A stretch of DNA of 23,863 nucleotides, from positions 1 to 23,863 of IMG/VR virus record IMGVR_UViG_3300042879_003684, one strand, 5' to 3'. The position numbers and the translations under genes were made by a program. The notes under the pieces were generated by a model. That model saw nothing but the letters and a program-made list of their open reading frames with translations, was not told the DNA's origin and did not search any database. Positions within the stretch are counted from its first letter, which is position 1. Every line of letters begins with the position of its first letter. Shown here in pieces: positions 1,132 through 23,572 of the stretch. Origin of the DNA: a virus.

Positions 1132-1340
1132 CGGACGCCGAGCGACGCGCCCTCGACGCACGCAGCGCCGCGACGTGGCGCGACATCCGCGAGGCCGCGG
1201 AGTGCGCCTTCGACGCCGCGACGACGTACCGCTACTACGACGGCGCGCAGACACACGACTGCGCCGACATGACAACGCTCGCACGAGTGACGCGGCCCGC
1301 ACGCAAGCGCGACCGCGTCCGGTGGCGAGAGGACCGATGA
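1122..1340 (+). CDS. Small unknown protein, 72 aa
   Basis: The frame starts with GTG at 1122, overlapping the previous gene by 10 bp, and its stop overlaps the ATG of the ParB-like gene (ATGA at 1337-1340). The product is charged. It has an acidic-helical N-half (LTDAERRALDARSAATWRD) and a basic C-terminus rich in Arg. A Tyr-rich patch (TTYRYYDG) lies in the middle. No family is recognised. The tight coupling on both sides is the main support that it is a real gene. No membrane segment or signal peptide is present. Confidence 0.45.
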   Translation: MPLTDAERRALDARSAATWRDIREAAECAFDAATTYRYYDGAQTHDCADMTTLARVTRPARKRDRVRWREDR

Positions 1341-2017
1341 CGACTCCTGCGACGATGACAGCGAAGCGAAGCGCACCATCCCCGCGCGCGATGGACCAGG
1401 GCGTCGCGGCGGTCTACCTCCCGCTCGGCGAGCTGCGGCCGAACCCGCGCAACCCGCGCGCGCACGGCGCCGAGGTGGTGCGACTCGCGCGGACGATCCT
1501 GCGCACGACGTGGGGCGCTCCGATCATCGCGCAGGCGAGCACGCGGCGGATCATCGGTGGTCACGGGCGGCTTGAAGCTGCGCGCATGATCGCCGAGGGC
1601 GTCGAGGTCGACGGCATTCTCCGCGGCGGCGCCGAGCACTACTTCGACCGCAGCGCGCCGGGGCCGCTCATGGTCCCCGTGCGCCTCGTGGACGTGAGCG
1701 ATGCCGAGGCCGATGCGATGACCCTCGCGGACAACGCGAGGGCGCTGCAGGGCGACGACGACGCGGCGGCGGTCGTGGCAATGGCCACGGCAGCGTTCGA
1801 GCGCGACGCCGACGTGATGCGCGACATGGGCTATGGCGCCGCGGACCTCGACGCGCTGGTCAGGGCCGCGGGCGACGCGGTGATGCGCGATGCTCCCGCG
1901 GGGGACGCGCCGACGTACAAGGGCGACCCCGACGGGCGCGAGTTCAACGAGAGCGTTGAGGATGAGGTCGATTCGCTGACGTGCCCGCACTGCGGCGGCA
2001 AGGTGCCCCGTGGCTGA
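1337..2017 (+). CDS. ParB/Srx-fold N-terminal domain protein
   Basis: ParB-like nuclease or CTPase-fold domain proteins are common in phages beside DNA methyltransferases. The 226-aa product shows the family signatures: LRPNPRNPRAH (about 33-43, box I) and IIGGHGRLEAA (about 72-82, the GGHGR-type box II), then a VPVRLVDVSDAEADAM segment and LADNARAL, typical of phage ParB-like proteins. The acidic C-terminal part ends in a single CPHC knuckle (216-219). ATG 1337 was preferred to upstream starts because it overlaps the previous stop as ATGA and has AGAGGA upstream. The next gene starts inside its end. It lacks the C-terminal DNA-binding region of plasmid-partition ParB, so a partition role is unlikely. 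A role with the methyltransferase is an inference from adjacency. Confidence 0.8.
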   Translation: MTTPATMTAKRSAPSPRAMDQGVAAVYLPLGELRPNPRNPRAHGAEVVRLARTILRTTWGAPIIAQASTRRIIGGHGRLEAARMIAEGVEVDGILRGGAEHYFDRSAPGPLMVPVRLVDVSDAEADAMTLADNARALQGDDDAAAVVAMATAAFERDADVMRDMGYGAADLDALVRAAGDAVMRDAPAGDAPTYKGDPDGREFNESVEDEVDSLTCPHCGGKVPRG

Positions 2018-3011
2018 CGGTGCGGCTCCGCGGCTGCGGCGCATCGAGAACTACCCCGCGCTGCTCAACGAGGCGTGGGCGCAGGCTCACGCGCCGCGCG
2101 ACGCGAACGCGCCGACGGTGATCAGCACCTTCGCCGGCTGCGGCGGGTCGTCGCTCGGCTACCACATGGCGGGGTTCCGCGAACTCCTCGCGGTGGAGTG
2201 GGAGCAGAACGCCGCAGACACGTTCCGGCTGAACTTCCCGCACGTCCCGCTGTACCACGGCGACATCGCGAAGCTGTCCGTTGACGAGTGCTTGCGCCTC
2301 GCGGGTGTGAAGCCCGGCGAGTTGACGGTGTTCGACGGCTCGCCTCCGTGCCAGGGCTTCTCGACGGCGGGCAAGCGAGAGATCGGCGACGCGCGCAACC
2401 AACTGTTCCGTGAGTACTGCCGCCTGCTCGAAGGGCTGCGACCGCGCGCCTTCGTGATGGAGAACGTCAGCGGCATGGTGAAGGGCGACTTCAAGATCGT
2501 CTTCGCCGAGATCCTCCGCACGCTCAAGCGATGCGGCTACCGCGTGAAGGCGCGGCTGCTCAACGCGATGTTCTTCGGCGTGCCGCAGTCGCGCGAGCGC
2601 ATGATCTTCGTTGGCGTGCGCGAGGACATCGGGCGCGAGCCGTCGCACTCCGCGGGGTGGAGTGAGCCGGTTTCAGTTCGCGCCGCCGTTGCGCTGGCTA
2701 CCGCCACCGGCGTGCGCGAGGGCTTTGGCCCTCGCCATCCAGTCGGGGTTCGGAACCACGAATTCGAGAACAAGTGGCGCAGCATGGACCTTCCTAGCTG
2801 CACGATCGTCAAGAGCCGCCCGCCGATGCTTTCGTTCTCCGATGGCAGCGAGCGAGGCATGACGCCTGCTGAATGCCAGCGCGTCGGATCATTCCCCGAT
2901 GCGTTCCGCTTCGTCGGCAACGCATCGAAGGCCGTCGAGCGTATCGGCAACAGCGTCCCTCCGCTCCTGATGCGGTCCATCGCCGCGCACGTTCGCACGC
3001 TGGTGACGTGA
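2010..3011 (+). CDS. DNA cytosine-C5 methyltransferase
   Basis: The product transfers a methyl group from S-adenosylmethionine to C5 of cytosine in DNA. All core motifs of the family are visible in 333 aa: motif I FAGCGGSSLG (41-50, SAM binding), motif IV PPCQGFS with catalytic Cys114, motif VI ENV (151-153), motif VIII QSRER (193-197) and motif X GNSVPP (313-318). The variable stretch of about 205-275 should hold the target recognition domain, and the specificity cannot be read from it. The GTG start at 2010 overlaps the ParB-like gene by 8 bp, and the stop overlaps the next start (TGATG). No restriction endonuclease lies beside it. It is therefore probably an orphan phage methylase that protects DNA from host restriction or marks DNA before packaging. 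Confidence 0.93.
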   Translation: MADGAAPRLRRIENYPALLNEAWAQAHAPRDANAPTVISTFAGCGGSSLGYHMAGFRELLAVEWEQNAADTFRLNFPHVPLYHGDIAKLSVDECLRLAGVKPGELTVFDGSPPCQGFSTAGKREIGDARNQLFREYCRLLEGLRPRAFVMENVSGMVKGDFKIVFAEILRTLKRCGYRVKARLLNAMFFGVPQSRERMIFVGVREDIGREPSHSAGWSEPVSVRAAVALATATGVREGFGPRHPVGVRNHEFENKWRSMDLPSCTIVKSRPPMLSFSDGSERGMTPAECQRVGSFPDAFRFVGNASKAVERIGNSVPPLLMRSIAAHVRTLVT

Positions 3012-19222: not shown

Positions 19223-20728
19223 GTGGCATTCACGGGACGATCACGCGAGACCATCCGAAGCGAACTCCTCGCGTCGTGGGCAGCGAACTACGCCTCGCGC
19301 GGCGAGACGTTGCAGACCTCTGCAGGGAGCGATGCCTACCTCATGGCGAGCGCCTTCGCGGTGCAGATGGAGGGCATCGAGGCGCAGGCCGAGCAGACCG
19401 CGCTCGACATCCTCCCCGACACCGCGAGCGCGGAGGCACTGGACCGCCACGCCTTCGTCGACGGCATCGCGCGTCGGTCGGGCTTCACCGCGCGGCTGTC
19501 GGTCACGGTCACGTCGGGCGTCGCGACGACGTTCACCATCCCCGCGGGCACGCGCATGTCGTTCAGCGACGGCACGCCGTACGTCGTGGAGAGCGCAAGC
19601 GTCACGACCTCGGGCGGTCCGCCTTCGGGCACGATCAACGTTCGCGCGACCGAAGCGGGCATCGCAGGGACGCGGCTCGCGGGCGACGTGCTCACCTTCG
19701 CGACGGCTCCGTCAGGGCTCAACTCCACGGGCACCGTGGCGAGCGTGCTGCGACAGGGCACCGACGCGGAGAGCGACGAGGACCTTGCGGCGCGGATCAT
19801 TGCTCGCCGTCGCGAGCGGCCCGGCAGCGGCAACCGCGCCGATTGGGCGTCGTGGGTCGAGGCGTACACCGGCACGGAGATCGCGCAGACCTTCGTCTAC
19901 CCGCTGCTCGCGCCCCCCGTGAGCTTCCCCGGCGCGGGCACGCCGAGCACGCCTGGATGCGTCACGGTCGTTGCGGTCGGCCCCGCGCAGGGCGACAGCA
20001 CCACGAACACGCGCATCGTCCCCGTGGCCGACGTTGGTGCTGGCACCGCGGGCGCTGAGCTCACGCGCATCGAGGAGTACATCGAGGGCGACCGTCTCCC
20101 CGATGGCACCGACGTGAGCGACACGCCGAACGACGCGCTGCGGCCGGTCACGGTCACGCCGGGGAACTACTCCGTCGAGGCCATCGCCGTCAGCGCCGAG
20201 AACGTCGTGGTCGACGTGGTCGTGAGCTTCGCCAACATCCTCCAGTGGTCGGGCACGATGACCATCGTGTCTGCGTCGTCATCGACCCTCGTGGTGAGCG
20301 GCGACCATCTCGACAAGGTCGGGATGCGGATCATCGCGAACATCGGTACCGGCAACTACCGCGGCGGCTTCAAGCTGTTCACCCTCGGCGCGGGGAGCTT
20401 CGACAGCACCGACACGACCTTCACCATGAGCGACGCGACCATCGCGACGGCGACGGGCACGGTGTACCCCGGGCACGGGAACTTCAACGCGATGCGGACC
20501 GCCGCGCTCAACTACTTCGACGCGCTCGGTCCGGGCGACACGTCGCCCGCATCGCGGTGGCCCACCGAAGACGACACCTCCCGCGCGCGGCTGTACATCA
20601 CGGCCCTCGCGGCTGCGATCAACGGCGCCGAGGGAGTGCTCTCCGCGGAGACGACGACGCCCGCGGCGGACGTGTCGCCCGCGGCGAAGACCGTCGTCAC
20701 CCTCGGCACCTTCCGCACGACGACGTGA
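19223..20728 (+). CDS. Baseplate protein J (Mu gp47-like, gp6 type) with a beta-type insertion
   Basis: The 501-aa product is a baseplate wedge of the J/gp47 family. Landmarks are IEAQAEQTALDILPDTASAEALDRHA, TIPAGTRMSFSDG, ESDEDLAARIIARRRERPGSGNRADWASW, and the C-terminal TALNYFDALGPGDTSPASRW with LYITALAAAINGAEGV. Between VVVDVVVSF and NFNAMRTAALNYF is an extra Thr/Ser/Gly-rich stretch of about 80 residues (338-418), usually absent at this point in my recollection of the family. GTG 19223 was chosen (GAGGTG before it); an in-frame start at 19166 would overlap the previous gene by 53 bp. Confidence 0.85.
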   Translation: MAFTGRSRETIRSELLASWAANYASRGETLQTSAGSDAYLMASAFAVQMEGIEAQAEQTALDILPDTASAEALDRHAFVDGIARRSGFTARLSVTVTSGVATTFTIPAGTRMSFSDGTPYVVESASVTTSGGPPSGTINVRATEAGIAGTRLAGDVLTFATAPSGLNSTGTVASVLRQGTDAESDEDLAARIIARRRERPGSGNRADWASWVEAYTGTEIAQTFVYPLLAPPVSFPGAGTPSTPGCVTVVAVGPAQGDSTTNTRIVPVADVGAGTAGAELTRIEEYIEGDRLPDGTDVSDTPNDALRPVTVTPGNYSVEAIAVSAENVVVDVVVSFANILQWSGTMTIVSASSSTLVVSGDHLDKVGMRIIANIGTGNYRGGFKLFTLGAGSFDSTDTTFTMSDATIATATGTVYPGHGNFNAMRTAALNYFDALGPGDTSPASRWPTEDDTSRARLYITALAAAINGAEGVLSAETTTPAADVSPAAKTVVTLGTFRTTT

Positions 20729-20731
20729 CGC

Positions 20732-21124
20732 ATGGCGACCATCACCACGTTCACCCGCGCACGCCCCGCTGACTCAACGCAGGCCGTCGCGTCGCAGGAT
20801 CTCACGCCGTCCGCGCTCGGGCGCCTCGGGTCCGTCGTGGTCACCGAAGACCCCGCGCAGGATGGCGGCGCATCGGTCACGGTGCGAGAGGATGCCTACT
20901 CTTGGACGGGGCCGCTCGGCGCGAGCGTTGACCCTCGCACGGGGCGTCCCTTCCGCGCAGCACCGTGGGTGCCCGCGTACCCGACCGACCTACTTGCGCT
21001 CGCCACGGAGCTGCCCCTGAGCGCGTACCTCACCACGTCGCAGACCTCCTACGGCGGGCTCGTCGCCGCGGTCGCTACCATCCTCGGCGGGTGGGGCTGG
21101 ACCTCCGCGACGGAGACGGTCTAG
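20732..21124 (+). CDS. Unknown baseplate-region protein, 130 aa
   Basis: ATG 20732 lies 3 bp after the gp47-like stop. The product has an acidic, Thr/Ser-rich N-half, a short VTVREDAYSWTGPLG segment, a Pro/Trp-rich centre (FRAAPWVPAYP) and a helical C-terminus (YGGLVAAVATILGGWGW). No family recognised. Its stop (TAG 21122-21124) overlaps the stop of the antisense lipoprotein gene on the CTAG palindrome. In Mu no gene stands between gp47 and gp48 here, so it may be specific to this phage group. Confidence 0.6.
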   Translation: MATITTFTRARPADSTQAVASQDLTPSALGRLGSVVVTEDPAQDGGASVTVREDAYSWTGPLGASVDPRTGRPFRAAPWVPAYPTDLLALATELPLSAYLTTSQTSYGGLVAAVATILGGWGWTSATETV

Positions 21125-21750
21125 CCGCGCTCGCACCGCGACGTGCGGGCGTTGCACACGAAGCCCGCGCCGCAGACGTATCCGCACTCCGCGCAGTTGT
21201 ACCGCGGGCCGTTCGGGTCGACACAGAGGGCAACGCCGCACGCCACAAGCCCCGGCGCGCAGCGGTGGACGCACATGCCCTGTGAGCACGCGGGCACGCT
21301 GCCCACCCCGCGCGCAGCACACCTCACCCCGCAGGCGCCGCAGTTCGCGGGGTCGACGGCGAAGCTGTCCACGCACGTCGAGCCGCAGAGGTGTGGCGGG
21401 TCGCACGCCACCACGTCGCGCGACGGCTGCGGCGGGGCCACCACGTCGGGCTCGATGACCACATCAGCGGTCCTCGCGGCGTCGGACGATGCGGCGTCGC
21501 TGGAGCCCGTTGCGGGCACGTCGGCAGGCGGGACGGGCGTTGCCGCGTCGGGGGCGTCAGCGGGCACGGGCGGGGCCTCCGCGGGGCAGGAGCACGCGCT
21601 CACGGTCCCGGCCTCGTCGCAGACCTGCGCGCCGGCGACGCCGCCGGGGCAGACACACGCCGCGGTGGTGCCAGGGGTGCAGTCCCGCGGCGCGAGCTCG
21701 GCGGACACAGAGCACCCGAGGGCGAACGCAGCGGCGATGAGGTGGCGCAT
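21121..21750 (-). CDS. Secreted Cys-rich lipoprotein, candidate moron/cargo gene
   Basis: This is the only minus-strand gene inside the late operon. I chose ATG 21750: it starts a short signal sequence MRHLIAAAFALGC in which Ala-Leu-Gly before Cys13 acts as a lipobox. A longer in-frame start at 21816 would add a basic 22-residue extension before the signal. After Cys13 comes a Cys cluster at about 24-55 (DCTPGTTAACVCPGG, AGAQVCD, SACSCP). Residues 57-114 are a Pro/Ala/Asp-rich linker. From 116 to 209 there are two half-repeats with CVDxxxxDPxNCGxCG-type spacing (CVDSFAVDPANCGACG; CVDPNGPRYNCAECG). The style is characteristic of Myxococcota surface lipoproteins. Its function is unknown. It could be a lysogenic conversion or superinfection-exclusion factor, but this is inference. 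Confidence 0.72.
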   Translation of the reverse strand: MRHLIAAAFALGCSVSAELAPRDCTPGTTAACVCPGGVAGAQVCDEAGTVSACSCPAEAPPVPADAPDAATPVPPADVPATGSSDAASSDAARTADVVIEPDVVAPPQPSRDVVACDPPHLCGSTCVDSFAVDPANCGACGVRCAARGVGSVPACSQGMCVHRCAPGLVACGVALCVDPNGPRYNCAECGYVCGAGFVCNARTSRCERG

Positions 21751-21836
21751 GGGCGTCACTTTACGCTTGACCCTGCGAAGATTCCATGACGCGACGGATT
21801 CGCCACCGCGTCGCAACTCGTGTACCCTCCCCCGCG
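21751..21836. other. Divergent intergenic region between lipoprotein and gp48-like gene
   Basis: These 86 bp lie between the divergent starts at 21750 and 21837. The + strand candidate promoter (21800-21828) is listed separately. On the minus strand a TAAAGT (21763-21758) could be a -10 for the lipoprotein, but no good -35 is seen. Confidence 0.4.
21800..21828 (+). promoter_or_regulatory. Candidate second late promoter
   Basis: TCGCCA (21800-21805) is followed after 17 nt by TACCCT (21823-21828), the same -10 hexamer as at 785-790. The -35 matches four of six bases. The start would fall near 21835, two bases before ATG 21837, which would make a nearly leaderless message. Confidence 0.3.
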
Positions 21837-22460
21837 ATGCCGCAACGACCGCAGCCGCTACCCACCGCGCCGTCGCTCAATGACACCGAGCGTCTATTCG
21901 CGCGGCAGTTCGCGATGTTGCTCGGCCCCTGGTACGGCGCCGCGGACGGCACGCGCAACGCCGCGGAGGTCGAGGGCATCGGCGAGTCGCTCGCGGAGTC
22001 CAGCGGCACCAACGAGAGCGTGGGCCGCGAGGCGTTCGTCAACCTCGCGTCGACGCTGCTCCCTGAGTGGGAAGCGCTCTACAAGATCCCCGCGCCGCTG
22101 ACGACGACGGCCGCGCGGCGCACCTCGCTCCTCGCGCGGACGCGGGCAGGCTTCATCGCGCACCCGCGCACCATCGTCGAGGCCATCCGCGACATCGCTG
22201 GCGCCGATGCGACCGTGCTGGAGCCGCTGTGGTCTGAGGTCACCGCGGACCCCGAGCGTGTGCACGTCATCGTTGTGCGCATGAGTGCCGATGCCTACGG
22301 GACGCCACCTGACCACACCGCGACCTATCAGCAGATCGTCGACGTGGTGGGCCGCATGAAGCCCGCGCACATCGAGGCGGTCTACACCGGAACGCAGACC
22401 ACGGCATTCCTCACCGACGACCCAGACAGCCTCACGGACAACACCGTGTTGAGAGCGTGA
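21837..22460 (+). CDS. Mu gp48-like tail protein (DUF2313/YmfQ family)
   Basis: The product is a baseplate or tail-fibre connector of the gp48 family. The chosen start ATG 21837 gives 207 aa; an in-frame ATG at 21786 would add 17 residues, with poor ribosome sites for both. Landmarks are LFARQFAMLLGPWYGA, EGIGESLAESSG, LLPEWEALYKIP, TSLLARTRAGFIAHPRTIVEAIRDIAG, and a C-terminal VVGRMKPAHIEAVY, the usual ending of the DUF2313 family. The normal order gp47-gp48 is broken by the antisense lipoprotein and the 130-aa unknown. The stop lies 3 bp before the next ATG. Confidence 0.78.
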   Translation: MPQRPQPLPTAPSLNDTERLFARQFAMLLGPWYGAADGTRNAAEVEGIGESLAESSGTNESVGREAFVNLASTLLPEWEALYKIPAPLTTTAARRTSLLARTRAGFIAHPRTIVEAIRDIAGADATVLEPLWSEVTADPERVHVIVVRMSADAYGTPPDHTATYQQIVDVVGRMKPAHIEAVYTGTQTTAFLTDDPDSLTDNTVLRA

Positions 22461-22463
22461 CCG

Positions 22464-23012
22464 ATGGAACCACTCGCGAAAACATGGACGGTCTTGCAGC
22501 AGGTCGAGAGCGCGGACCTCAACCAGCTTCAACGCAACGCCGTCGCGCTGCGCCCTTCGGCTGGCACCGCCACGAACTCATGGAGCGCCGTTGCCAACGG
22601 GCAACAGGGCGTGATGTTCCAGAGCGAGAGCAACGTCGCCAACGGCACGGTGATCACCATCGACACGTCGCTCGATTGGCGCGACCGAGTGCTCTACGGG
22701 TGGGTTCTCGCGTACGGCGCGGCGACCTACCCGGGCAACGCCAACGACACCAACATGAACAGCGGCGCCGCGTCGCTGTATCACTTCGTTCTCTACACGG
22801 GCACGGGTGCCACCGACGCAGGCGCGGCGCTCGTGTCGAATGGGAACCCCCCCGGCATCGGGTACTTCACCGACATGGGTGTCACCAACGTGTTCATCTT
22901 CTGCGACACCGGCGCGGGCGGCGGAAAGCTCCGTATCTACAACGGCAGCGGCGCCGTGTTCTACACGCCCACGGTGTTCGTCTACGCAACGCAGGATCTC
23001 GGCAAGCGCTGA
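22464..23012 (+). CDS. Putative tail fibre or fibre-associated protein
   Basis: The 182-aa product begins with KTWTVLQQVESADLNQLQRN, an N-terminal type commonly seen in phage tail appendage proteins (W-x(n)-ADLNxLQ). The rest is beta-rich with many Gly, Asn, Thr and aromatic residues (DWRDRVLYGWVLAYGAATYPG; SLYHFVLYTGTG; VFIFCDTGAGGGKLRIYNGSG). This suggests a beta-sandwich that might bind a surface sugar. No enzymatic motif is seen. ATG 22464 is 3 bp after the gp48-like stop. The fibre call rests on position (after gp48) and composition, not on a named family. Confidence 0.55.
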   Translation: MEPLAKTWTVLQQVESADLNQLQRNAVALRPSAGTATNSWSAVANGQQGVMFQSESNVANGTVITIDTSLDWRDRVLYGWVLAYGAATYPGNANDTNMNSGAASLYHFVLYTGTGATDAGAALVSNGNPPGIGYFTDMGVTNVFIFCDTGAGGGKLRIYNGSGAVFYTPTVFVYATQDLGKR

Positions 23013-23050: not shown

Positions 23051-23572
23051 ATGGGCAACCCCGCGTCATTCGTCACCGCCGCATCGACCGCCGACCGCAA
23101 CACCTTCGCCGCCGCGCAGACCTTTTCGGGCGGCATCGCCGTCACGGGCGGGATCACGGGCGGCGTGCGTCAGGTCGTGCCGTTCGGGCAGACCAACATC
23201 GTCACGGGCGACAACGCCACACCCGCGAGCTCGACGCCCGTGCAGACGCACTGGTGCGGCGTGTCGGGGCTCACGACGTGTGCCTTCGTCGCGATGCGCG
23301 CGGGCTCCGTGACGGGGCTGTCGATCAACCTCAACACCGCAGCGGCGGGCTCCAACCTCATCGTGGGCGTCTACAAGAACGGCACGATCATCAACGCCGC
23401 CGCCATCGTCACCCTGGCGAGCGCGACGAGCGACGTGAAGGGGCAGGGCACGTTCACGTCGGGCTCCTACGCGTTCGTCGCGGGTGACGTGATCGACGTG
23501 CGCATCCGCACCGGCTCGGGCTGGAGCGCGACCGCGGCCGACTGCTCCATCGCCGTCGAGATCGAGACCTGA
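23051..23572 (+). CDS. Putative tail fibre protein with repetitive N-terminal shaft
   Basis: The 173-aa product begins with ASTADRNTFAAAQTFSGGIAVTGG, in which the NTFxxAQTFSGGxxVxGG pattern is typical of fibre shafts. It continues as a compact beta domain (AMRAGSVTGLSINLNTAAAGSNLIVGVYKNG; FVAGDVIDVRI). Three cysteines are spread through the beta domain without obvious pairing motif. AGGAG lies 7 nt before ATG 23051, a strong ribosome site, after a 38-bp gap that follows the previous gene. The likely role is host recognition, inferred from position and style. Confidence 0.6.
   Translation: MGNPASFVTAASTADRNTFAAAQTFSGGIAVTGGITGGVRQVVPFGQTNIVTGDNATPASSTPVQTHWCGVSGLTTCAFVAMRAGSVTGLSINLNTAAAGSNLIVGVYKNGTIINAAAIVTLASATSDVKGQGTFTSGSYAFVAGDVIDVRIRTGSGWSATAADCSIAVEIET

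Follow-up and report, generated by a model that had tools for sequence, protein, structure and literature searches.

Antisense Gene in the Late Operon

Why does a single gene stand against the direction of a phage late operon, and what might its product do? The question was raised by a 23.9-kb IMG/VR virus record, which was analyzed at its full length and is called the window here. The window carried a plus-strand late operon of the Mu type (head and contractile tail), in which domain matches were obtained for Portal_Mu (1.9e-70), the terminase, the C-terminal domain of the sheath and Baseplate_J (1.7e-27). The insertion site was flanked upstream by the Baseplate_J gene (Mu gp47-like, denoted J; 19229..20728, plus strand) and downstream by a Mu gp48-like baseplate wedge gene (21837..22460, plus strand). 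The latter matched Phage_Mu_Gp48 with E = 3e-9, its 37.3 bits falling narrowly under the cut-off of 37.4, and ATG 21837 was more likely to be its start than 21786. Between them lay the sole minus-strand gene of the window (P0001; 21121..21750, ATG at 21750), which encoded a Cys-rich lipoprotein of 209 aa, as indicated by the ORF and its homologues. This gene ran tail-to-tail with a small plus-strand ORF of no assigned function (20732..21124) and was divergent from gp48. The antisense gene and the small ORF overlapped at their stop codons and shared the four bases of a CTAG palindrome (21121..21124). The small ORF was part of the J–gp48 insert in some insert-bearing lineages only; it was also seen between J and the lipoprotein gene at 6491-6928 of L056 and at like places in L055-L059, and it evolved faster than J in one pair.

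In the protein, a short signal peptide and the lipobox Cys13 were followed by an early Cys module, and a linker rich in Ala, Asp and Pro led from there to the C-terminal part, which was again rich in Cys. The signal peptide MRHLIAAAFALG and the lipobox Cys occupied codons 1-13 (21712..21750, minus strand). The lipobox read F-A-L-G-C13, and the lipoprotein call was based on a rule-based pattern, with Cys13 closer to the N-terminus than usual. The pattern was satisfied by every full-length homologue, in which the Cys was at position 13-20. The initial annotation of a minus-strand Cys-rich gene with a lipoprotein signal between the gp47- and gp48-side genes was borne out. The Cys motif CVDSFAVDPANCGACG was found in the window protein. 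The C-terminal Cys-module region covered approximately residues 115-208 (21127..21408, minus strand), and nine Cys in it (C155-C206) were invariant among ten homologues; the lipobox Cys was almost invariant, with a fragment as one of the rows. An excess of changes at third codon positions was found in three of four close pairs (p = 0.002, 0.02 and 0.02), and the fourth pair gave p = 0.63. Judged by its sequence, the ORF is a real gene, beyond chance, because the frame, the lipobox and the nine C-terminal Cys were kept in homologues at the same place. The anatomy of the antisense gene is well supported.

A longer antisense ORF from TTG 21816 was rejected as too long, and the start was placed at ATG 21750 because both the homology and the promoter-like motif described below point there. 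A plus-strand ORF over the antisense gene (21143-21883) was judged to be a mechanical antisense frame of the kind usual in high-GC DNA. The structure model of the lipoprotein was poor (mean pLDDT 63, pTM 0.33), and the best match in the PDB fold search reached only E = 0.46; hence, no fold is claimed.

Protein Family and Database Matches

The Cys style had been likened in the initial annotation to that of Myxococcota surface proteins and not of virion proteins, and the database matches agreed with this comparison. NCBIfam NF041328 (MXAN_6577-like) matched 7 of the 10 members, with a best value of 1.5e-13. The Cys-module pattern extended across much of the model in these members, but the scores displayed, which ranged from 34 to 51 bits, were all under the cut-off of 100 (34.1 bits for the window protein, 50.9 for the best). 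Shuffled or reversed copies gave no NF041328 match; hence, composition alone does not explain the matches. The Pfam family Stig1 (PF04885) was over the cut-off in L081 (25.7 vs 24.1 bits), and the window copy scored 14.2. This family is named after a plant one, and the common element is likely the Cys spacing.

The lipoprotein matched no virion family and no structural PHROG, and the members tested had no convincing PHROG match and no match to a defense model of PADLOC. No sequence match to known exclusion proteins was obtained in PHROG, PADLOC or phage records, and P0001 had no match in phage or plasmid records. A single-protein scan with the L054 lipoprotein returned only L054 itself, and the lipoprotein alignment contained no conserved stretch of 7-10 columns.

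Distribution at the Baseplate Junction

The portal and baseplate J proteins were used as queries to gather related contigs. Twelve IMG/VR contigs from seven divergent lineages carried the antisense Cys-rich lipoprotein gene at the J–gp48 junction; the window and G001, G002 and G003 were counted as one lineage and L056-L059 as another. The gene was identical in G001 (39.5-kb record) and present as a 95% copy in G002, whereas G003 (J 69%) had a diverged copy ending at the contig end. The more distant carriers, with the gene between J and gp48, were L053, L054, L055, L056-L059, L063 and L081, and J identity to the window fell to about 48% among carriers. Against these 12 contigs with the insert stood 11 with an empty site, in which gp48 directly followed J (L060-L062, L064-L070 and L073). 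This is the pattern of an inserted moron, and the comparison of the locus in relatives supported the initial annotation to that extent.

The J tree was rooted with the outgroup L091, in which gp48 also adjoined J. The empty-site phages formed one nested clade (99/98 support), and a single clade of the insert-bearing rows was rejected (AU p = 0.0096). Before L081 and the outgroup L091 were included, the J tree showed a single change; with both included, it showed two. Since the insert-bearing clade was rejected, ancestral presence and one loss were favored over a single late gain; the simplest reading of the tree is that the lipoprotein gene was present at the base of the phage group and was lost once later. 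Hence, the moron claim held for an extra gene but not for a sporadic passenger, because every retrieved member of the basal lineages carried the gene and because an ancestral gene that was lost once agrees with the tree. This moron is more than a random passenger: its junction, its orientation and its type of protein stayed the same through deep divergence, and its loss left a clean empty site.

The gene is dispensable, because the whole empty-site clade was without it. This clade kept the tail genes, which is consistent with no role in virion assembly or lysis. The fixed place among baseplate genes in many phages would suit a virion component, that is, a tail-tip or baseplate lipoprotein that is antisense by happenstance. 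Such a component is very unlikely, considering the nested clade with the same tail genes, the opposite strand, the lipobox, the promoter-like motif of the gene itself and the missing structural PHROG match. An outer-membrane spanin or another lysis lipoprotein is highly improbable as well. It would account for a lipoprotein in a phage whose host is probably Gram-negative, but a separate short sense-strand lipoprotein with a lipobox was present in G001, G002 and L064, so that the lysis role already has a candidate. This short Cys-containing protein was encoded at 6376-6627 of L011 (G001), 10952-11203 of L013 (G002) and 9824-10042 of L064. It lay close to the endolysin in G001 and downstream in the empty-site L064, was common to insert-bearing and empty-site phages, and is a candidate for an outer-membrane spanin of unusual type.

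Promoter-Like Signal

A −10 box of the TANNNT type (TAAAGT; 21758..21763, minus strand) was located 7 nt before the antisense ATG and represents a candidate leaderless-type promoter. Another box of this type (TACCCT; 21823..21828, plus strand) was located 8 nt before the gp48 ATG 21837; it was kept in L051 and was not found ahead of gp48 in the other lineages checked. A TANNNT box ending 6-8 nt before the lipoprotein ATG was present in 6 of 7 lineages, whereas none of the 23 sense genes of the window had one. Over all loci, the signal was carried by 18 of 3223 ATG triplets, and 12 of these 18 were cassette or gp48 starts, two of the 12 being the window's own starts counted again in G001. In the whole of G001, the signal preceded an ATG ORF of at least 50 aa only at the lipoprotein gene and gp48. 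The G003 copy was truncated by the contig end before its start and was left out of the motif scoring. The box was first noticed in the initial lineages and was met again in L081, which was absent from the set that defined the motif. It also gives a simple rule for searches, namely to look between J and gp48 for an antisense ATG with TANNNT 6-8 nt ahead of it; the L081 copy has already been recognized in this way. In the seventh lineage, L053, the lipoprotein gene was the last of an antisense cluster and overlapped the gene upstream; hence, it may need no promoter of its own.

A −35-like hexamer (GTGACA/TTGACC) was found 18-19 nt upstream in L054, L057, L059 and L063, and also before gene 2 of L063 and G010; no such hexamer was seen ahead of the window copy. 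A scan for sigma-70 and terminator consensus sequences was empty, and no intrinsic-terminator-like site was detected in 20600-22500. The gene abuts the converging late gene. Morons usually possess a terminator of their own, although their definition does not demand one (PMC2629481). Leaderless promoters of this layout were reported in mycobacteria and Deinococcus-Thermus (PMC3898074, PMC12340547). As far as sequence can indicate, the antisense gene is probably read from its own promoter as a leaderless mRNA, and the independent expression proposed in the initial annotation gained a promoter-like signal far above background. The locus thereby offers a testable case of a promoter firing against a late operon.

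Sequence Divergence at the Tail Genes

Among near-identical phages, the lipoprotein sequence changed far faster than its neighbors. Among L056, L058 and L059, J and gp48 were 97-99% identical, whereas the lipoprotein was 76-86% identical. The dN values were 0.09-0.18 for the lipoprotein vs 0.004-0.017 for J and gp48, and the dN/dS values were 0.39-0.92 vs about 0.06-0.13. In the same three contigs, one downstream tail-side gene was replaced or strongly diverged, and its neighbors were better kept; in the pair of the window and L051, both the tail-side gene and the lipoprotein were kept. The link between the divergence of the two genes comes from one trio and one pair, a small sample in which the three pairs of the trio are not independent. 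The positional counterpart of this second hypervariable gene in the window (23051..23572, plus strand) is a receptor-binding candidate by position only.

Superinfection-exclusion lipoproteins adjoin receptor-binding genes in T5- and T1-like phages, and T5 Llp acts on the receptor FhuA (PMC9586334). As in T5 Llp and T1 Cor, a phage lipoprotein was encoded beside tail or receptor-binding genes, and a disulfide is present in Llp too. Llp is single and small, whereas the proteins described here had 174-227 aa, a long Ala/Asp/Pro linker, Cys modules and no PHROG match. They shared the lipoprotein signal of Llp/Cor-type proteins and had no sequence similarity to known members. By analogy, the window lipoprotein most likely works like T5 Llp or P22 SieA, and it is a member of neither family.

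Richer Inserts, Lifestyle and Host

The junction of G010 (5582-8090 of L042) carried a small putative regulator, a membrane-anchored protein and the lipoprotein on the antisense strand, and an Ant-like anti-repressor (PHROG 63, 1.4e-6) on the sense strand. The putative regulator resembled a ribbon-helix-helix protein by eye and had no Pfam match. In L063, the junction carried the lipoprotein and an antisense membrane protein common with G010. The ant moron of P22, which separates the late operon from the tailspike gene, combines the exclusion gene sieA with repressors and an anti-repressor (PMC2629481). The likeness to this moron (sieA, ant, mnt, arc) is that the insert occupies a constant position in the tail block and is missing from some relatives, and that the membrane proteins of G010 are accompanied by an Ant-like anti-repressor and by a small candidate regulator. 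The constant gene here was an antisense Cys-rich lipoprotein, however, and the phage type and probable host differ. The variable moron content and the second antisense membrane protein in G010 and L063 could also be expected of a passenger useless to the phage, or of a gene that affects other phages without involving the receptor. We consider this improbable, since the frame and the Cys pattern were kept over deep divergence and no PADLOC match was found.

G010 is probably temperate because it encodes a tyrosine integrase domain, and a temperate relative favors the moron reading of the initial annotation. No integrase was found outside G010, and the majority of the contigs were fragments. A search of 15 records for Mu-type transposase (rve) and serine recombinase domains found neither. 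The host is probably a predatory myxobacterium; this we only infer, because two scans of genome contigs (J and portal alignments) gave no relative among cellular genomes.

Proposed Function

The promoter motif, the lipid anchor, the place beside tail genes and the hypervariability together suggest superinfection exclusion. The antisense gene may be an independently expressed moron that is fixed in the lineage and whose product, an envelope lipoprotein, most likely serves superinfection exclusion; we give this explanation about an even chance. The moron would be set against the late operon at the J–gp48 junction and transcribed on its own, and it would make an envelope protein that carries a lipid anchor, is rich in disulfides and is composed of Cys modules of the myxobacterial type. 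We infer that expression from its own promoter would occur early in infection and/or in the lysogen, and the opposing late transcript, running through the antisense gene, would silence it at the stage of virion production. Once lipidated, the protein would reside in the outer membrane and block or mask the surface receptor of its own phage and kin, so that the infected or lysogenic cell would be shielded from rival phages. Against exclusion, the lipoprotein had no sequence match to a known exclusion protein, defense family or PHROG, the clade of 11 contigs was without the gene, the integrase was seen only in G010 and the window copy had no −35 hexamer. The gene nevertheless provides a concrete superinfection-exclusion candidate in a little-studied group of uncultured tailed phages.

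With the same moron anatomy, the protein may instead be a lysogenic-conversion factor that alters another surface trait (predation, cell–cell contact, outer-membrane exchange or protease resistance) and excludes no phage. The size of the protein, which exceeds that of Llp, and its modular build make such a conversion or social factor possible, and the host-type Cys modules and expected envelope display would agree with it. In its favor, too, recognition in myxobacteria is reported to be governed by the polymorphic surface receptor TraA (PMC6626042, PMC6372800). We hold this alternative to be somewhat unlikely; the hypervariability alongside the tail-side gene, the tail-gene adjacency and the P22-like insert of G010 favor exclusion. 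A bolder version of the exclusion explanation is improbable: the phage lineage would have adopted the myxobacterial Cys-rich surface-protein language and would use it for recognition, in a hypervariable module coupled to the phage adhesin. The prophage would then re-label the cell surface and exclude rival phages, cell–cell recognition or outer-membrane exchange would possibly be changed, and convergent late transcription would be the off switch.

Other Features of the Window

Ahead of the terminase genes, positions 1175-3011 of the window encoded a ParB-like protein and a C-5 cytosine DNA methylase (5.5e-60). A stretch of approximately 140 bases at 419-557 occurred again at two sites in G001, namely 29225-29366 (73%) and, in part, 1-85 (77%), and it is possibly a regulatory repeat.
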